Positions 9,198-20,262 of a stretch of DNA of 23,614 nucleotides are shown here, piece by piece; positions within the stretch are counted from its first letter, which is position 1; each line of letters starts with the position of its first letter. A model generated the notes under the pieces. It was not told the origin of the DNA and did no database searches. It saw nothing but the letters and a program-made list of their open reading frames with translations. This stretch comes from Verrucomicrobiales bacterium (GTDB lineage Bacteria > Verrucomicrobiota > Verrucomicrobiia > Limisphaerales > UBA9464). The translations under genes were made by a program, and so were the position numbers. The stretch lies in contig DLVS01000080.1 of NCBI GenBank assembly GCA_003445095.1, forward strand, positions 1 through 23,614. The letters run 5' to 3'.

Positions 9198-9343
9198 AGA
9201 CAGTGAAGAGTGGAAGGTGACAAGTGACGAGCGAGAGCGGCGGGAAGAGTCCTTTGCGTGTCACTCGTCACTCGCCACGGGTCACTTCTTCCGAAGCCGG
9301 GGTTCTTAAGCAACTGGCGGAAGGCGAAGCGGAGGTCTTGCAT
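9194..9343 (-). other. Leader module 1: permease-N-terminus mini-ORF plus hairpin
   Basis: A 49-aa mini-ORF starts at 9343 with [17 protein letters not shown], a near copy of the permease N terminus, then diverges after NPGF into GRSDPWRVTSD and stops with TGA at 9194-9196, overlapping the ATG of the permease at 9197. The tail DNA holds two heptamer tracts of opposite sense: 9261-9288 (TCACTCG units) and 9203-9237 (GTGACGA-type units). They can pair into a hairpin just before the permease start. The module also overlaps the 3' end of the four-helix-bundle gene, whose stop lies inside it in another frame. Whether the mini-ORF is translated is unknown; no Shine-Dalgarno is seen. Confidence 0.7.
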
Positions 9344-9713
9344 AGGGGCGAGAGGCGAGGGAACGGCGAAGCGCGCTGGCCATTTTCTGAATCTCCTCGA
9401 TCAAACCTTGAACGGGCTGCGCTTCCGACGCCGTACAGAAGTTCAATTCGACAGCCAGGATGGACTGCGTCTCGAGCTCAGCCAACGATCCCTCCGCGTG
9501 GGAGATGAACTGGATGCATTCGTCCGTCGTGTTTCGAGCGTGTCCTTCGGCGAGATTGGAGGGCACCGACACGGCGGCTCGCCGCATTTGCGAGTCCAAA
9601 CCGAACCTTTCATCGGCGGGGAATGGGCGCGTGAGCTGATAGATCGTCTTCACCAAGACGATGCTCTTCTGCCAGACCACAAGGTCCTTGTAGCTCATCA
9701 GTTTCTCGCTCAT
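9306..9713 (-). CDS. Four-helix-bundle protein (23S rRNA IVS-type)
   Basis: The 135-aa product belongs to the four-helix-bundle family first met as ORFs within 23S rRNA intervening sequences (once mis-named S23 ribosomal protein). Landmarks are SYKDLVVWQKSIVLVKTIY (helix 1), FPADERFGLDSQMRRAAVSV and PSNLAEGHARNT (helix 2), FISHAEGSLAELETQ (helix 3), and a final helix LIEEIQKMASALRRSLAS. The real domain ends near SLASRP; the last 11 residues (ARPPLRLPPVA) are read-through in another frame of the permease-like stub of leader module 1. The start at 9713 follows an AAGAGAAGAAAA purine run. The gene sits between two permease genes and is flanked by heptamer arms of opposite sense (9733-9760 and 9345-9365). 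Its biochemical role is unknown. Confidence 0.88.
   Translation of the reverse strand: MSEKLMSYKDLVVWQKSIVLVKTIYQLTRPFPADERFGLDSQMRRAAVSVPSNLAEGHARNTTDECIQFISHAEGSLAELETQSILAVELNFCTASEAQPVQGLIEEIQKMASALRRSLASRPYARPPLRLPPVA
9345..9365 (+). repeat. Heptamer arm, 3' side of the four-helix-bundle gene
   Basis: Units GGGGCGA, GAGGCGA, GGGAACG. The same units occur at 14978-14998 in leader module 4, again directly preceding a copy of ATGCAAGACCTCCG on the minus strand. Confidence 0.65.
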
Positions 9714-12154: not shown

Positions 12155-12309
12155 AAGCAGTGATGAGTGACGAGTGACAAGTGATGAGCGGTGGCAGCGT
12201 AGGAGCTTTTCAGAGTTTCCGGCTCGTCACTCGTCACTCCCCACTGGTCACTTCTTCCGAAGCCGGGATTCTTCAGCAACTGGCGGAAGGCGAAGCGGAG
12301 GTCGTTCAT
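12151..12309 (-). other. Leader module 2: permease-N-terminus mini-ORF plus hairpin
   Basis: A 52-aa mini-ORF begins at 12309 with [17 protein letters not shown], continues [19 protein letters not shown] and ends HHCL with a TGA at 12151-12153 that overlaps the permease ATG at 12154. Opposed heptamer tracts lie at 12223-12257 (CTCGTCA, CTCGTCA, CTCCCCA, CTGGTCA) and 12160-12187 (GTGATGA, GTGACGA, GTGACAA, GTGATGA). The paired block AGTGACGAGTGACGAGC matches the complement of the other arm at 15 of 17 positions. The stub differs from the adjacent permease start at 7 of 51 bases, nearly all silent. It is preceded on the minus strand by only 44 bp after the stop of copy D. Confidence 0.75.
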
Positions 12310-12318
12310 GGCGTTGGA

Positions 12319-12346
12319 GAATCTGGAATCTAAAATTGGCGATTTG
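12319..12346 (+). repeat. Heptamer tract GAATCTR
   Basis: Units GAATCTG, GAATCTA, AAATTGG, CGATTTG between permease copy D and leader module 2. The period is seven bases but the unit is unrelated to the GTGACGA tracts. Confidence 0.5.
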
Positions 12347-14807: not shown

Positions 14808-14962
14808 AAGTAGTGATGCGTGACGAGCGACAAGTGACACGTCGTGGCGGTGCGGGAAGTTTGCAGGGTTCCCATCTCGTCACTCATCACTCGCCACTGG
14901 TCACTCCTTCCGAAGCCGGGATTCTTGAGGAGTTGTCGCAGGGCAAATCGGAGGTCTTGCAT
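14804..14962 (-). other. Leader module 3: permease-N-terminus mini-ORF plus hairpin
   Basis: A 52-aa mini-ORF runs from 14962 ([17 protein letters not shown], then GRSDQWRVMSDEM) to a TGA at 14804-14806 that overlaps the permease ATG at 14807. It has the same length as module 2, and by hand alignment the 104 bases after the stub are about 79% identical to module 2 without gaps, loop included. Opposed heptamer tracts are at 14876-14910 (CTCGTCA, CTCATCA, CTCGCCA, CTGGTCA) and 14813-14840 (GTGATGC, GTGACGA, GCGACAA, GTGACAC). Confidence 0.75.
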
Positions 14963-14967
14963 AGGGA

Positions 14968-15108
14968 TTAGTGGTTAGGGGCGAGAGGCGAGGGAAAGGC
15001 ATCCGGAACTACTTTCTTTCTCTCTGACACCTCGCCCCTAACCTCTGACCCCTGCCCACAGCCAGGGTTCTTCGCCAACTGGCGGAGGGCAAATTTGAGG
15101 TCTTGCAC
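14968..15108 (-). other. Leader module 4: tandem permease-N-terminus stub plus hairpin, no permease after it
   Basis: From a GTG at 15108 the frame reads VQDLKFALRQLAKNPGC then GQGSEVRGEVSERKK and stops (TAA at 14968-14970), five bases before the ATG of module 3. The stub is again the permease N terminus. The tail has opposed heptamer tracts at 15024-15058 (CTCGCCC, CTAACCT, CTGACCC) and 14964-14998 (GTGGTTA, GGGGCGA, GAGGCGA), sharing a 13-base exact pairing core GGTTAGGGGCGAG. These units differ from modules 1-3 but equal the arms around the four-helix-bundle gene. The frame can be extended upstream to an ATG near 15189. Confidence 0.65.
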
Positions 15109-15360
15109 AGAGATTAGAGGGCCGAGAGTCGAGTGATGGTGCAGAGCATAGACTTGCTCATTCTGCATTCGGATTTCCACACTCGGCATTCAAACGGTCG
15201 GTCATTGGTGAGTGGTTCTGCCGTCTGGAGGTTCGTGGCCTGGCGATCATTCCGCGCTCAGCGTCTCGAGTTTCGAATTCAGCATTCCCTGACTCCGAAG
15301 CTGCAGCCGTTGTGCCATCAACCGAATCCCTCCGCAGTTCTGCCTAAAATGAAGCTGTTA

Positions 15361-15384
15361 AACCCGTCGGAACGACTATGGGTT
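15361..15384. repeat. Palindromic element AACCC...GGGTT
   Basis: An outer 5-bp stem (AACCC/GGGTT) encloses a small hairpin GTCG-GAA-CGAC with a three-base asymmetric bulge. It may be a REP-type element together with the next palindrome 30 bp away. Confidence 0.4.
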
Positions 15385-15414
15385 CAGCGTTACGATTCGA
15401 TTCTGGGACGTTCC

Positions 15415-15432
15415 CGTCCCGCCAACGGGACG
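15415..15432. repeat. Short palindrome (REP-like), cgtccc/gggacg
   Basis: A 6-bp stem CGTCCC/GGGACG with a GCCAAC loop; sister of the palindrome at 5060-5077. Confidence 0.5.
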
Positions 15433-15470
15433 CGCCACCCGGGGCGTCAGCTTTGACGCATTCCGCAATG

Positions 15471-15506
15471 GCTTGTTCTCCGTAGCTCCGTTGGCGAAAG
15501 CAGAAG
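15471..15506 (+). repeat. Intergenic copy of the TIR-inserted repeat
   Basis: The block starts GCTTGTTCTCCGTAGCTCC and closes GGCGAAAGCAGAAG, the same pattern as the 33-bp insertions in the TIR gene at 17167 (consensus about CCTGTCYCGCCGTAGC, short variable centre, GGCGAAGGCGGA). This is the only copy seen outside a coding sequence. Confidence 0.55.
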
Positions 15507-15636
15507 CCGGTACATTTCGACTTCCCAGGGCGGAAGGGCTTGCGGGCTCGCGAAAGTCCCGACGATTGCACCGCCAGCGTAGTTCCTCCGTTGCAGCCAG
15601 CTTGACGTCTCCGGTAAGCCGGGTAAGAACTCCGCC

Positions 15637-15885
15637 ATGAACAGTGCGACGATCTCGACGAAAGGCCAGTTGGTCATCCCGCATCGTTTTCGCAAAGCTC
15701 TCCACCTAAAGGCGGGCGACAAGGTCTCCTTCTCATTAGACGGCGAGAAACTGACTCTCCAACGCGACGAGCCCAAACGCGCGCGATTGGTCGAGCGTCA
15801 GGGCCGGAAGGTTCTGGTCGCCCCACCCGGCGCACCTCCCATGACCCCCGAACGGGTCCGGTCGTTGCTAGCCGACTTTCCATGA
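15637..15885 (+). CDS. AbrB/MazE-type antitoxin
   Basis: The 82-aa protein has an N-terminal swapped-hairpin AbrB DNA-binding domain (ATISTKGQLVIPHRFRKALH then LKAGDKVSFSLDGEKLTLQ, about residues 4-45) and a C-terminal tail that would wrap the toxin (PPMTPERVRSLLADFP). This is the usual VapB-type antitoxin that binds its own operator and neutralises the PIN toxin. Its stop overlaps the start of the next gene as ATGA, typical of translationally coupled toxin-antitoxin pairs. It is the first gene of the plus-strand series, so a promoter and operator should lie within 15510-15636. No clear operator palindrome was identified. Confidence 0.85.
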   Translation: MNSATISTKGQLVIPHRFRKALHLKAGDKVSFSLDGEKLTLQRDEPKRARLVERQGRKVLVAPPGAPPMTPERVRSLLADFP

Positions 15886-16277
15886 GCCATTTGCTGCACG
15901 TGAGTTTTCTCTTGGCGTGTGGATGGAGTTCCCACCCCAAGCATACCGCCGCACGGGCGTGGCTGGAACGTCAGGCTGCCTTCGCGACCAGCCCCCTCTC
16001 TGAAGTGGGCTTCGTCCGCGTCAGCATGACACCGGGTTATCGGGCTTCATTTTCGGATTCGCAGGCTGCGCTCGCCGATATCACCTCTCGCAAGCAGGCG
16101 CGCTGGTTGCCGGCAGACCTACACGCAGCCCAATTGCCCGTCCTCGCCAACCACGCCCACGTTACCGACGCCTACCTGGTCGAACTGGCTCGCGCTCACG
16201 GCCTGAAGCTGGCCACCCTGGATGATAAGTTGTGCAACATGAATTGGGCCGCCGGCATTGCCGAAAACCCGCTCTGA
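15882..16277 (+). CDS. PIN-domain protein (VapC-like), first catalytic Asp replaced
   Basis: The 131-aa PIN-domain protein pairs with the AbrB antitoxin. The family's usual acidic residues are seen at Glu41 (LSEVGFVRV), Asp96 (VTDAYLVELA) and Asp114/115 (LATLDDKL). The invariant first Asp in beta strand 1 (LLDVNxLLA in relatives) is His6 here (LLHVSFLLA), and the following Asn is Ser8. VapC toxins cut RNA with this acidic cluster and magnesium, so the copy is probably inactive or impaired. The rest of the domain is complete and of normal length, so the change looks recent. A sequence error cannot be excluded. Confidence 0.85.
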   Translation: MSHLLHVSFLLACGWSSHPKHTAARAWLERQAAFATSPLSEVGFVRVSMTPGYRASFSDSQAALADITSRKQARWLPADLHAAQLPVLANHAHVTDAYLVELARAHGLKLATLDDKLCNMNWAAGIAENPL

Positions 16278-16393
16278 TCCGTCGCCATGCCAGAATTATT
16301 CCAATACGACGTCTTCCTGAGCCACAGCGCAAAGGACAAGCCGGTGGTGCGCGACTTGGCGGAGCGGTTGCGCAAGGGCGGGGTGAAGGCGCC

Positions 16394-16435
16394 ATTCCAT
16401 TTCGGAATTCGGAATTCGAAATTCGGATTTGCAAA
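16394..16435 (+). repeat. Heptamer tract TTCGGAA inside the TIR1 remnant
   Basis: Consecutive units TTCGGAA, TTCGGAA, TTCGAAA, TTCGGAT, TTGCAAA from 16401, preceded by ATTCCAT. It occupies the exact gap in TIR homology. Confidence 0.75.
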
Positions 16436-16481
16436 GCCCGGCATGTCGGCTCACGCGTTCGGGTCGGACTTGGCGCAGTCG

Positions 16482-16514
16482 GCCTGTGGCGCCGTAGCTT
16501 CCCTGCGGAGGCGG
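16482..16514 (+). repeat. 33-bp repeat inserted in the TIR1 remnant
   Basis: An eleven-codon insertion (ACGAVASLRRR) at the same codon position as the fourth insertion in the TIR gene at 17167 (AGHAVASLQRR). The two copies are close in sequence, so this insertion predates the split of the two TIR copies or was copied between them. Confidence 0.7.
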
Positions 16515-16527
16515 AAGGCCGGCAGTT

Positions 16528-16674
16528 GCCGTTCGCTCCTTGGCTATCATTCCCAATGGTGATATGCGGGACGAAACCATGGAGAACATCAAGATCGCCC
16601 TCCGGGTATGGCTCCACGTCGAATCCGAGGATTCCGGGGTGCCAGAAGCGGAAGAGGACCTCGTCGCCATCTGA
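16528..16674 (+). pseudogene. HicB-family antitoxin C-terminal fragment, frameshifted
   Basis: The end of the TIR1 frame reads LLGYHSQ, which is the HicB motif (LPGCHSQGDT in relatives). One extra T then shifts the frame, and the next frame continues GDMRDETMENIKIALRVWL and ends EAEEDLVAI, the usual HicB helix and C-terminal tail. The N-terminal part of HicB is replaced by TIR1 sequence. It stops at 16672-16674, eight bases before the RelE-like gene, the place where a cognate antitoxin would sit; it may be the broken antitoxin of that toxin. Confidence 0.6.
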
Positions 16675-16682
16675 GTCGTGCT

Positions 16683-16931
16683 ATGGCCTACGAGATGGAA
16701 ATCAAAGACGAGGCGAAGGCCAAGCTGAGGGCTCTGCCAGAGGATATCCGTCGTGAGATCGGCCATCGCCTCCATCTTCTGCAACGCGATTTTAGTGGCG
16801 ACGTGAAGAAGCTGCAGGGCAGTAAGAATGAATATCGGCTGCGAGTGGGTGAATACCGGGTGCTCTTTGAGTTGGTGGGCACACGCATTGTCGTCTACAC
16901 ACTCGGCCCCAGAAAAGACATTTACCGATGA
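16683..16931 (+). CDS. RelE/ParE-family toxin
   Basis: The 82-aa protein has the RelE fold sequence pattern: MAYEMEIKDEAKAKLRALPE (strand 1 and helix 1), the DVKKLQGSKNEYRLRVGEYR centre with KLxG..YRLRVGxYRVLF, and the final strand IVVYTLGPRKDIYR. RelE toxins cut mRNA in the ribosome, while ParE relatives poison gyrase; the RxGxYRVLF and HRKDxYR-like ends favour the RelE branch. I chose the ATG at 16683 because the longer frame from 16608 runs through the HicB fragment. Its stop overlaps the next gene's ATG (ATGA), and an upstream antitoxin is only present as a frameshifted fragment. Confidence 0.85.
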   Translation: MAYEMEIKDEAKAKLRALPEDIRREIGHRLHLLQRDFSGDVKKLQGSKNEYRLRVGEYRVLFELVGTRIVVYTLGPRKDIYR

Positions 16932-17140
16932 GCACCGCAACCGGGAGAAGTCCGGCCATTCGCCGGCCCCAAAACCTCGACCGCCAGATCGCTCGGGCGA
17001 AAACCATTTTGCGCGAACTCCGCGATACCCTGGAGGACCTGGACGACCGCCGCGAACTGACCCGCGCCAAGCAGCGAAACGCGGGCAAGCGTGGCACCGA
17101 CTGGGAATCCGTTATAAAGGATCTTGGGTTCAAGTTCTGA
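16928..17140 (+). CDS. Small charged helical protein, possible partner of the RelE-like toxin
   Basis: The 70-aa protein overlaps the toxin gene by ATGA. It is rich in Arg, Asp, Glu and Leu, with a probable long amphipathic helix (about residues 18-45, RQIARAKTILRELRDTLEDL), a basic stretch and a compact C terminus (TDWESVIKDLGFKF). No DNA-binding motif is recognised. Position and overlap suggest an antitoxin in a toxin-first pair, but nothing in the sequence proves this. The TIR gene at 17167 starts 26 bp downstream, so it may also belong to the same transcript. Confidence 0.65.
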   Translation: MSTATGRSPAIRRPQNLDRQIARAKTILRELRDTLEDLDDRRELTRAKQRNAGKRGTDWESVIKDLGFKF

Positions 17141-17166
17141 TAGCCCCTCGTTCCCGCCTGGCGCCC

Positions 17167-17664
17167 ATGCCCGACGAATTCCCCTACGACATCTTCCTAA
17201 GCCACAGCGCGAAGGACAAGGCGGTGGTGCGCAACGTGGCGGAGCGGTTGCGGAAGGACGGGGTGAAGGTGTGGCCTGTCTCGCCGAAGAGTCGGCGCGA
17301 AGGCGGATTTGATGAATGGGTGCTCAAACCCGGCGACAGCATCCCGGCGAAGATCAATCTGCCTTCGCTCAAGAGCTACGGCAAGACAGGGGAAGGGCTT
17401 GATGAACGGAGTGGGCTGGCCTGTCCCGTCGAAGCCCATTGGCGAAGACGGATGCTCTGCATGTCGGCGAATGCGTTCGGCTCGGACTGGGCGCAGTTGG
17501 CCGGTCACGCCGTAGCTTCCCTGCAGAGACGGAAGGCCGGCACATTCCGCTTTCGCGACCCGCTGAACAAGGAGCGCCGCTTCCTTCCCCTGCGGTTGGC
17601 CGACTGCGAACTGCCGGACACGCTGTGGCGGTGCCAAGCTCCCTCAACCACATGCCTTGTATGA
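17167..17664 (+). CDS. TIR-domain protein with four in-frame 33-bp insertions (TIR2)
   Basis: The 165-aa frame starts PDEFPYDIFLSHSAKDKAVV and contains the TIR blocks ERLRKDGVKVW, FDEWVLKPGDSIPAKI, LCMSANAFGSDWAQL and AGTFRFRDPLNKERRF in order. Each pair of blocks is separated by an extra 11-codon insertion: residues 37-47, 64-74, 86-96 and 112-122. The last insertion splits the SxWxxxE motif: SDWAQL is present but the catalytic Glu is not (Lys123 stands where QLEAGT is expected). The C-terminal helices of the domain are missing; the end (WRCQAPSTTCLV) is unrelated. The stop overlaps the thsA start as ATGA. NADase activity is improbable; it may be a pseudogene kept open by the multiple-of-three insertions, or a non-enzymatic partner. 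Confidence 0.75.
   Translation: MPDEFPYDIFLSHSAKDKAVVRNVAERLRKDGVKVWPVSPKSRREGGFDEWVLKPGDSIPAKINLPSLKSYGKTGEGLDERSGLACPVEAHWRRRMLCMSANAFGSDWAQLAGHAVASLQRRKAGTFRFRDPLNKERRFLPLRLADCELPDTLWRCQAPSTTCLV
17275..17307 (+). repeat. 33-bp coding repeat, insertion a (forward)
   Basis: Begins CCTGTCTCGCCGAAG and ends GCGAAGGCGGA; it splits KVW|FDEW. Contains the palindromic pairing CGCC/GGCG. Confidence 0.7.
17356..17388 (-). repeat. 33-bp coding repeat, insertion b (inverted)
   Basis: Read on the minus strand it gives TGTCTTGCCGTAGC, then TCTTGAGCGAAGGCAG, the same family in the opposite direction. It splits AKI|xEGL. The centre GCTC-TT-GAGC is a perfect small hairpin. Confidence 0.65.
17422..17454 (+). 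repeat. 33-bp coding repeat, insertion c (forward)
   Basis: Begins TGTCCCGTCGAAGCC and ends GGCGAAGACGGATG. It folds as CCGTC-GAA-GCC-CATT-GGC-GAA-GACGG. It splits the strand before LCMSANAF. Confidence 0.7.
17500..17532 (+). repeat. 33-bp coding repeat, insertion d (forward), at the catalytic Glu
   Basis: Begins GCCGGTCACGCCGTAGC and ends AGAGACGG; it separates SDWAQL from AGTFRF. The equivalent insertion is in TIR1 at 16482-16514. Confidence 0.7.
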
Positions 17665-19112
17665 GTGTCGAAGCCATTTCCGAAACGGAGTTCGTTCGCG
17701 AATACACGCGCGAATTACACAGCAAGAACGCCGCAGTGTTCGCTGGCGCCGGCCTGTCGCTGGCTACGGGCTACGTTGATTGGAAGGGCCTGCTCAAGGA
17801 AATCATCGAAGACCTGCATCTCGATCCGGTCAAGGAGCATGACCTGGTGACGCTCGCGCAGTATCACTGCAACCAAGCCGGCGGCAGCAAGACGCGCCTC
17901 ACCAAAGCGATTTTCGATCACTTCGCACCGACCAAGGCGCCGACGGCTAATCACCGGATTTTGGCCCGGCTTCCGATCCACACTTACTGGACGACAAACT
18001 ACGACAAGCTGATCGAAAAGGCGCTGGAAGAGGCCAAGAAGGTTCCCGACGTCAAGCACGAGCTGAAGCAACTTTCGGTGACCCGGCCAGATCGCGATGT
18101 CGCCGTTTACAAGATGCACGGCGATGTGGATCACCCGGCGGATGCCATCATCTGCAAGGATGACTACGAAGCGTATCCGCTCACGATGAGCGCTTTCGTA
18201 TCGGCTTTGCGTGGAGACCTCGTCGAGAAGACCTTCCTCTTTCTCGGTTTCAGCTTCACCGATCCGAATATCGACTACATCCTCAGTCGGGTGCGCGTGC
18301 AGTATGAAAAGCACCAACGTCATCACTATTGCATCCAGAAGAAGGTGACGAAGGACGCCAGGGAAACGGACGCCGAGTTCAAATACCGGCAGCTAAAGCA
18401 GGACTACTTCATCCGTGATCTGAAACGGTTCAGCGTTTACACCGTGCTGGTCGATGATTACCCGCAGATCACGGTCCTGCTCGACCGGCTCGCTGTGAAC
18501 TACAAGCGGGCCTCGGTCTTGATCTCGGGCGCCGCTGAAGACTACGGAGCGTGGAAGCCGACCGATGCACAGGCGTTCCTGCACGAACTCAGCCGGCAGA
18601 TCGGATCGAAAAGGAACCGGATCATCACCGGGTTCGGCGTAGGTGTCGGGAGTGCCGTGCTCAATGGCGCGCTGGCTCATCTCGACGCTGCGGGGAAGAC
18701 AATCTCTGATGAGGATATCGTGGTGCGCCCATTTCCGCAGGTGGCCACCGGCGGCGCAAGCCTCGACGACCAGTGGGCGCAGTATCGCAAGGCGTTCATC
18801 GAACACGCCGGGATTGCGATCTTCGTCTTCGGCAGCAAACGGGATGCGACCGGCAAGATTGTGTCTTCTGATGGCGTCAGGAAGGAATTCGATCTCTGCG
18901 TCGCAACGAAGGTGCGACCGCTGCCGATTGGAGCGACGGGATTCATGGCCGAGGAGCTGTGGAAGGAAGTTTGGGGCGACTTCGCCACTTTCTATCCAGA
19001 TGCCGACGCCGCTTTCCGTGAGGAGTTCGAAAAGCTTGGAGATCCATCGAAGACTCCCAACAAACTGCTGGCCTCCATCCAAAAACTGATTCAACACCTT
19101 CAGAAAACCTGA
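17661..19112 (+). CDS. thsA: ThsA, Thoeris effector (SIR2-SLOG)
   Basis: The 483-aa protein has an N-terminal SIR2-like NADase domain (about residues 10-280) with VFAGAGLSLATGY, WTTNYDKLIEKAL (Asn113), VYKMHGDVDHP (His153) and FLFLGFSFTDPN. A C-terminal SLOG/STALD domain follows (about 285-483) with SVLISGAAEDYG, GFGVGVGSAVLNGAL and IAIFVFGSKRD. This two-domain order is that of ThsA. In the known Thoeris system, TIR protein ThsB makes a cyclic ADP-ribose signal on phage infection, which binds the SLOG domain and switches on NAD+ depletion. The residues expected for catalysis are all present. The start overlaps the TIR2 stop as ATGA; an in-frame ATG also lies at 17652. The gene is followed 2 bp later by thsB. 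Confidence 0.93.
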   Translation: MSVEAISETEFVREYTRELHSKNAAVFAGAGLSLATGYVDWKGLLKEIIEDLHLDPVKEHDLVTLAQYHCNQAGGSKTRLTKAIFDHFAPTKAPTANHRILARLPIHTYWTTNYDKLIEKALEEAKKVPDVKHELKQLSVTRPDRDVAVYKMHGDVDHPADAIICKDDYEAYPLTMSAFVSALRGDLVEKTFLFLGFSFTDPNIDYILSRVRVQYEKHQRHHYCIQKKVTKDARETDAEFKYRQLKQDYFIRDLKRFSVYTVLVDDYPQITVLLDRLAVNYKRASVLISGAAEDYGAWKPTDAQAFLHELSRQIGSKRNRIITGFGVGVGSAVLNGALAHLDAAGKTISDEDIVVRPFPQVATGGASLDDQWAQYRKAFIEHAGIAIFVFGSKRDATGKIVSSDGVRKEFDLCVATKVRPLPIGATGFMAEELWKEVWGDFATFYPDADAAFREEFEKLGDPSKTPNKLLASIQKLIQHLQKT

Positions 19113-19114
19113 CG

Positions 19115-19687
19115 ATGGCAAAACGCGTTTACTTCGTTTTTCACTACCAGGACGTCATCGACTTCCGGGCGAATGTTGTGCGGAATCACAGTCTAACCAA
19201 GGGTCTTGAAAAGGCTGGCTACTATGACGCCTCGATTTGGGAGGAATCCAAAAAGAAGGGTGAGTTGGCGTTGAAGCGGATGATCAACGCTGAACTGGAA
19301 TACACCAGTGTTACCGTAGTGCTTGTTGGCACGCACACCTATGCCCGCCGTTGGGTGAGATACGAGATCATGAAGAGTGCGGAACGGGGAAATGTAATGC
19401 TGGGAGTGCAGATCAACAGCATTCCCGGAAAGGATAGGCTCACGAAGTTGCCGGGGCCGAATCCGTTTCAGTATCTCGGCGTCACGATCAGCGCCGACGG
19501 GAAGCGGGCGACTCCGCACGAGTGGGATGGCACCAAATGGAAACTCTATTCAGACCTCGGTGCGTTTACTCTGCTAGAGCAACCCGTCGCGAATCGGGGA
19601 AAATTCTTTCCGCTTACGCAGTGGTTTCCAGTGAATGACTGGGTGCAGCACAACGGCTTCAATAACTTCAACACCTGGCTCGGTTAA
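19115..19687 (+). CDS. thsB: ThsB, Thoeris TIR sensor (DUF1863/MTH538-like)
   Basis: The 190-aa protein has a DUF1863-type TIR-like domain: KRVYFVFHYQDVIDFRANVV (strand 1 and loop), GYYDASIWEESKKKGELALK, TSVTVVLVGTHTYARRWVRY, and a WxxxE pair at Trp80 and Glu84 (RRWVRYEI). The rest (LGAFTLLEQPVANRGKFFPL) is family-typical C-terminal region. Known ThsB proteins of this type sense phage and make the cyclic ADP-ribose signal for ThsA. It starts 2 bp after thsA and its TAA overlaps an ATG at 19687, so the genes are a tight operon. All catalytic features look intact. Confidence 0.93.
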   Translation: MAKRVYFVFHYQDVIDFRANVVRNHSLTKGLEKAGYYDASIWEESKKKGELALKRMINAELEYTSVTVVLVGTHTYARRWVRYEIMKSAERGNVMLGVQINSIPGKDRLTKLPGPNPFQYLGVTISADGKRATPHEWDGTKWKLYSDLGAFTLLEQPVANRGKFFPLTQWFPVNDWVQHNGFNNFNTWLG

Positions 19688-19737
19688 TGTCGCTGCTCGT
19701 CACATCCGCGGTGCGTGCTCGCGCTCAGAGGGCGACG

Positions 19738-20262
19738 ATGCGCAATTTCAGCGCGGCGAGCCTGCTCACGGACCAGATGACAAAGCAGGCGTCCGTGTCA
19801 CAGCACGACATTTTTCTGTCACACGCGTTCGACGATAAGGAACTCATTCTCGGTGTCGTGCTCACGCTGGAGGATTTAGGATACACCGTTTACCTCGACT
19901 GGCGAGACGACCCCTCGCTGGACCGAAAAAATGTGACGGTGGCGACGGCTGAAAAACTGCGAACACGCATGAAGGCTAGCAAGTGTCTCTTCTACGCAAC
20001 GACTGAGAACGCCAGCAGCTCGAAGTGGATGCCTTGGGAGCTTGGCTATAAGGACGGCCACAACACTCTCGCGGCAATTTTGCCAATCAAAGAATCGACC
20101 CCCACATCGTTCTATGGTCAGGAGTATCTCGGAATCTATCCATACGCTGTTCAGCAGCGGAGCCAAGCCGAGACTGAGCGTATCTGGATTCACCGGGCGC
20201 CCACGGTCTATGTCGTCTTTGAAGAGTGGCTCGCAGGAAAGGAACCGGTCCAGCGCGAATAA
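19738..20262 (+). CDS. Second TIR-domain protein of the Thoeris operon (canonical TIR class)
   Basis: The 174-aa protein carries a classical TIR domain: QHDIFLSHAFDDKELILGVV, LEDLGYTVYLDWRDDP, LDRKNVTVATAEKLRTRM, LFYATTENASSSKWMPWELG with WxxxE at Trp97 and Glu101, and the family block FYGQEYLGIYP. It differs in class from the DUF1863 ThsB before it; multi-ThsB Thoeris operons are known, with the extra sensors widening phage range. I prefer the ATG at 19738, preceded by AGAGGG at good spacing and giving the MRNFSAASLL start typical of relatives. The alternative ATG at 19687 overlaps the thsB stop (TAATG) and would add 17 residues. Confidence 0.85.
   Translation: MRNFSAASLLTDQMTKQASVSQHDIFLSHAFDDKELILGVVLTLEDLGYTVYLDWRDDPSLDRKNVTVATAEKLRTRMKASKCLFYATTENASSSKWMPWELGYKDGHNTLAAILPIKESTPTSFYGQEYLGIYPYAVQQRSQAETERIWIHRAPTVYVVFEEWLAGKEPVQRE

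Follow-up and report, generated by a model that had tools for sequence, protein, structure and literature searches.

A 33-bp REP-like palindrome of Verrucomicrobiota, probably mobile, in frame at recurrent sites in TIR genes

A stretch of 23,614 nucleotides from a Verrucomicrobiales contig (DLVS01000080.1; the whole stretch is here called the window) has in its right half a Thoeris defence locus, in which ThsA, a SIR2-STALD protein (17661–19112, forward strand; E 7.7e-190), is followed by ThsB (19115–19687, forward) and by a second ThsB-like TIR gene (19687–20262, forward). With ThsA and two ThsB-like genes, the system at 17661–20262 looks complete. Upstream of ThsA there is a TIR1 remnant (16287–16562, forward), which matches the TIR_2 family below the family cut-off, and then TIR2 (17167–17664, forward), a TIR_2 gene riddled with copies of a short repeat: the initial annotation had recognised in it four additional in-frame segments of eleven codons. 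What are these segments, how might they have entered the gene, and what would they do to its product?

That the four segments are insertions is evident from comparison with genes that lack them, a check that the initial annotation had called for. In a DNA alignment (MAFFT) with uninterrupted TIR genes from four genomes (G014, G004, G011 and G062), TIR2 has 33 extra bases at each of the first and fourth sites, and 66 at the second and third together (split 22 + 44 by MAFFT); in protein alignments, each of the four sites has 11 extra residues. The copies represent three codon phases and both orientations. Copy 1 (17275–17307, forward, codon phase 0) adds PVSPKSRREGG after KVW, at site 36; copy 2 (17358–17390), which is inverted, as had been noticed, reads about NLPSLKSYGKT after AKI, at site 53; copy 3 (17420–17452, forward, codon phase 1) places ACPVEAHWRRR before MLCMS, at site 62; and copy 4 (17501–17533, forward, codon phase 1), the most diverged, follows WAQL, at site 78. 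Starts had previously been given as 17275, 17356, 17422 and 17500, so the presence of all four segments stands, but their exact bounds have had to be redrawn.

The assignment of the four inserts to a single repeat family is borne out by a covariance model built from 48 hand-chosen copies from outside the window, with the window copies and some odd copies left out. The model finds five copies in the window, with E values of 6.7e-11, 5e-10, 2.5e-8, 1.1e-7 and 4.3e-4, the last being the weakest of the TIR2 inserts and the fourth being the further copy that had been reported within the TIR1 remnant (16483–16515, forward), where its place equals that of copy 4 (site 78); the sixth-best match is noise (E 0.27). 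A pattern search allowing up to three mismatches gave four window copies (three in TIR2 plus that in TIR1) against none in 100 shuffles, and missed the copy at 17501. An intergenic copy had also been proposed, at 15471; a degenerate 33-mer can be made out there by eye, with indels (15472–15504, forward), which the model does not match at E ≤ 1, and it is listed here as a possible, unconfirmed copy. The suggestion that each insert can fold on itself holds in part: in DNA folding the copies at 17358 (z −1.65) and 17420 (z −2.50) form the family hairpin, that at 17275 takes a different fold (z −1.93), and the fold of that at 17501 shows no advantage over shuffled sequence (z +0.64). An Rfam search of window positions 15000–18000 gave a single match (E 0.99), under its gathering score.

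The family consensus is CYTGTCNCGCCGTAGC-N6-GCGAAGGCGGA (33 bp). Searching with this pattern (up to three mismatches, CCTG at the start) within the order to which the Pedosphaera and Limisphaerales records belong revealed the element in 31 of 320 genomes, and in 49 of 387 genomes drawn from the phylum Verrucomicrobiota; the reversed pattern matched none of the genomes listed in either set. Some genomes are rich in matches (63 in G556 and 22 in G565), and the genome closest to the window by its permease (G323; 68 and 78% on two fragments) has none in the pattern search. Viral contigs contained no exact match to the element.

How sharply is the unit defined? Among the 135 copies found in the supplied loci, 67 were distinct in their flanks, and in these the conservation ends sharply at base 1 and base 33, the end bases carrying 1.58 and 1.46 bits and positions outside them 0.38 or less; as the position score or pattern used to find the copies admits fixed alternatives at certain positions, the variation visible within the unit is limited. 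The flanks show a bias, with G at −1 in 39 of the 67 and T or A at +1 in 51, and this preference is too weak to account for the TIR sites. Alignment with empty sites revealed no target-site duplication at the TIR sites. Across the 67 copies, abutting direct repeats of at least 4 bp occurred twice (0.46 in shuffles), and a 5-mer shared near the junction six times (2.4 expected; 11 of 500 shuffles reach six), so that, given this small genome-wide excess of direct repeats, some copies may carry duplications. Complementary flanks were found around eight copies (2.5 expected, the largest shuffle giving 7), which suggests that some copies lie inside existing hairpins or form the cores of longer ones, and in some genomes the core is kept within longer family-specific repeats. 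At two loci (L245 and L234, from G033 and G205), identical flanks, TCCGAATAGG and TGTTTAGCCG, surround cores that differ by a linked change of GTA/GAA to ATA/GAC.

The conserved first four bases, CYTG, form an unpaired 5' tail. Behind them is a stem of pairs 5–33 and 6–32, a bulged base 7 and pairs 8–31 to 11–28, then a 3 × 3 internal loop, usually GNA/GNA, followed by a short inner stem and loop. In a covariation analysis that assumed no structure (105 distinct copies, with 31 hand-picked copies left out), the most strongly linked columns were 5–33 (TA/CG), 12–27 (GA/AC), 17–22 and the neighbours 18–19, followed by 8–31 and 10–29; the links 5–33, 12–27, 17–22, 8–31 and 10–29 were each equalled in none of 300 permutations. 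The top ten also contained, lower down, pairs that do not belong to the hairpin (24–30, 7–27, 17–18 and 7–12, besides 18–19). With the structure given, 95.6% of cells pair in the 48 hand-chosen rows, and both partners have changed in 30 cells, where shuffles give 6.2. Loops of the GNA/GNA type can form sheared pairs. Positions 12 and 27 change jointly from G/A to A/C in 11 of the 105 copies and are A/A in six, a non-Watson–Crick covariation within the mostly GNA/GNA loop. It points to a non-canonical structure that is recognised, and offers an experimental approach to the enzyme that would move the element.

The TIR genes are not the only ones with copies in frame. An alpha-L-rhamnosidase (L241) contains one; aligned with the solved homologue 3w5m (E 1.8e-245), it shows a gap of 11 residues at the element, which HMMER sets three residues too early. 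In three genomes the reading frame of an NAD-epimerase contains the element (L233, L235 and L250), the single alignment examined stopping short of the insert. Elements also lie in frame in a ComEC protein (L249), within its DUF4131 match; in L237, in the stretch that precedes a kinase domain; and in an XseA frame (L225), within the N-terminal region, where the copy may be upstream of the true start. L242 matched no solved homologue, and neither it nor L227 matched any family. Many other copies look intergenic, and spurious frames in GC-rich DNA make any estimate of the intragenic fraction unreliable. The consensus itself, as read off, is free of stop codons in five of its six frames, and since 33 is 3 × 11 an inserted copy can leave the frame open; the in-frame state requires no special adaptation. 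The initial annotation's view of the inserts as palindromic elements that enter genes in frame as 33-bp units thus finds support both in the uninterrupted relatives and in the many copies in other genomes.

From these comparisons of sequences we think it probable that Verrucomicrobiota possess in the 33-mer a mobile palindrome, REP-like and non-autonomous, that integrates as an exact 33-bp unit, and that TIR genes are recurrent landing places for it. Such an element would prefer to integrate with G before it and T or A after it, and may move as single-stranded hairpin DNA with a mover enzyme supplied in trans; reading frames would survive by virtue of its length and lack of stops, TIR genes would be hit repeatedly, and two copies within one gene could then recombine, deleting the DNA between them. 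In transposition of the IS200/IS605 type, the substrate is a single-stranded hairpin and insertion takes place without target duplication. The 33-mer is similar in its hairpin and in the absence of duplication at TIR sites (the target duplication of MITEs and IS derivatives is likewise missing there), but differs in having no strongly conserved tetranucleotide in its 5' flank and no transposase linked to it in the 60 Y1 loci examined. Cyanobacterial small dispersed repeats, which are reportedly very small, mobile and of similar size (Elhai et al., 2008), belong to a different lineage. Whatever moves it, the element has left a natural record of 33-bp insertions and empty sites from which target choice and end definition can be read directly.

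What might the insertions mean for TIR2? The copy at site 78 splits the glutamate codon of W-A-Q-L-E, an instance of a W-x-x-x-E motif whose E is present in most uninterrupted relatives; WAQLE aligns with W-T-N-Y-E of AbTIR, and this glutamate we take to be the catalytic residue of TIR. As the copy replaces the conserved glutamate, TIR2 is predicted to be inactive as an NADase, and loss of NADase activity is predicted likewise for other TIR proteins with an insertion at site 78. Immune TIR genes are thus among the targets of in-frame palindrome insertion in Verrucomicrobiota, which can cost them a conserved glutamate. A relative that is free of inserts and similar at its C-terminus (P0021) has G in place of the glutamate, so the activity may have been lost first. 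Structure prediction gave pLDDT values of 47.3 with the inserts and 53.9 for the uninterrupted P0021; both models were built on insert-rich alignments and are too poor for the effect of the inserts to be judged.

Is the gene, then, simply a decaying pseudogene that collects repeats, its open frame reflecting nothing but the length of the element and its lack of stops? We find the case evenly balanced. Decay would account for four copies in a single gene next to a TIR1 that is itself a remnant, and it would sit well with the removal of the glutamate by site-78 copies and with the G in the insert-free P0021. On the other hand, the 165 codons of TIR2 include no frameshift or stop, its host residues are still well conserved, and its stop codon overlaps the ThsA start as ATGA, suggesting translational coupling. 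The question bears on function and leaves the mobility of the element untouched.

The places at which TIR genes are interrupted are few and recurrent. Alignment of 179 listed TIR proteins to a single uninterrupted reference gave 206 inserts of at least four residues, of which 141 were exactly 11 residues long, in a sample that is biased by the use of two insert-bearing queries and in which some of the 11-residue inserts may be something other than the element. They fell at sites 26–28 (7), 36 (28), 51–53 (34), 62 (40) and 77–80 (29), with single cases at sites 68, 83 and 90, that at site 68 being unlike the element; three inserts of 22 residues were tandem pairs. An insert of 10–12 or 22 residues at one of the five sites was present in 77 of the 179 proteins, in 19 combinations. 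TIR genes in whole genomes reuse sites (36 and 90 in G011, and 90 in G013). A hybrid junction in G011 has the 5' flank of site 28 on one side and the 3' flank of site 62 on the other, and looks as if the DNA between two copies had been deleted. A copy in G135, met via the element, lies by eye at site 28 of a TIR remnant, where tblastn gave no match at E ≤ 1. In a set of 80 TIR loci from named genomes, the covariance model found one clear copy (in L026) and weak matches in L040 (E 0.025) and L026 (E 0.15), from which most of the TIR loci of named genomes appear to be empty; the insert at site 36 of G011 is 33 bp long with a junction as in TIR2, yet it is absent from the model's matches at E ≤ 1.

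In our reading, insertion has occurred repeatedly; recombination between the similar TIR genes has to be taken seriously, whether as a rival account or as a contributor. In its strong form, to which we give appreciable weight while inclining against it, that rival holds that each site was hit once or a few times long ago and that homologous recombination and transfer have since redistributed the insert-bearing alleles over the TIR paralogues, producing mosaic combinations with no new insertions. The TIR genes would lend themselves to this: those aligned from G014, G004, G011, G013 and G062 are 80–94% identical in DNA, whereas the window permease is mostly about 27–43% identical in protein to the matches listed, and TIR genes and fragments form same-strand clusters in several genomes, about 0.4 to 6 kb apart (L172, L173, L176, L177 and L181). 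Across all 174 proteins, occupancy follows the tree at sites 53, 62 and 78 (0, 0 and 1 of 200 shuffles); within the 72 carriers, in favour of repeated insertion, there is no clear signal, 43 to 300 of 300 shuffles managing with as few changes. Within one protein, the copies at sites 62 and 78 are as alike (0.691) as those of different proteins (0.689; 10 proteins), which gives no support to genome-specific source copies. Against the rival, elements are not clearly more alike within site 62 (0.645) or site 78 (0.707) than across the two (0.667). Element identity barely tracks host identity (r 0.05–0.25), and at site 36 the window and G011 have very different 33-mers, the latter with a matched change at 9–30.

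Repeated insertion of a mobile palindrome, our preferred reading, raises the question of relatives. Intragenic REPs are described in several species, Opitutus terrae having most of the GTAG ones (Di Nocera et al., 2013; PMC3733652), so the earlier statement that no such element is described for this lineage does not hold: on the evidence of that paper, in-frame palindrome insertion is already known for Verrucomicrobiota, and neither the phenomenon nor the phylum is new. What is new is a REP-like family of fixed length that bears a CYTG tag and recurs at certain sites of TIR genes, the Opitutus repeats having been compared by description; searches of the open-licence literature yielded no description of it. 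By that description (PMC3733652), both kinds of repeat are small palindromes in which a conserved tetranucleotide stays unpaired at one end, both show complementary changes in the stem and intragenic copies, and both occur in one phylum. They differ in that the window family is tagged by CYTG rather than GTAG or CGTC, has a fixed length of 33 bp and a GNA/GNA internal loop, and recurs at particular TIR positions. Palindromes in frame within genes are also a feature of the RPEs of Rickettsia, to which the elements had been likened; the intragenic repeats of R. conorii correspond to RPE-4 and RPE-6, RPE-1 being longer (same source), and the window element is set apart, by description, by its 33 bp and by the lack of a CGTC tag.

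Could the elements nevertheless be GTAG REPs of the ordinary kind, with RAYT transposases as their movers? In the broad sense of a multicopy imperfect palindrome of 20–40 bp they are REPs, with 33 bp, many copies and a covarying hairpin; Y1_Tnp genes occur in 19 of 20 and in 4 of 4 element-bearing genomes, and GTAG precedes 7 of the 36 listed copies of G556 and G565. We nevertheless think this unlikely, as terminal GTAG is not general (2 of the 67 flank-distinct copies): the unpaired end is CYTG, GTAG being internal, in the internal loop and inner stem, and column counts over the 67 copies do not show the CGTC tag either. In 60 Y1 loci, a part of the Y1_Tnp matches, no copy reached the position-score cut-off, and two model matches below E 0.001 lay about 1.4 kb (L114) and about 150 bp (L283) away; no RAYT in these loci was consistently flanked by the element, a further difference from the REPs as described in that paper. 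In L283 (1350–1921), a Y1 transposase lies between inverted repeats of its own, CCTAGGGTT, probably a separate REP family.

We attach very little probability to a bolder idea, in which the family would be a third, CYTG-tagged class of REP, with a mover other than RAYT that inserts the 33-mer, and perhaps precisely removes it, at preferred positions of TIR immune genes, and in which insertion at the conserved glutamate codon would switch off an NAD-cutting defence protein reversibly and in frame. Ordinary divergence of protein sequence can be dismissed as the origin of the segments, in view of the uninterrupted relatives, the 33-bp size, the copies at unrelated loci, the three phases and the two orientations.

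Finally, we draw attention to other repeats in and around this locus. The TIR1 remnant (16396–16440) and three proteins (P0020, P0122 and P0123) contain an insert of a different kind, whose reading resembles FGIRNSKFGFAKPG and which replaces part of the TIR domain; other repeats are also in frame within TIR genes of this order. Elsewhere in the window, short remnants resembling the start of a permease lie between neighbouring permease genes (9295–9355, 12261–12321, 14914–14974 and 15060–15120), with a spacing of about 150 bp and with TCACTCGTCACT-like repeats close by.
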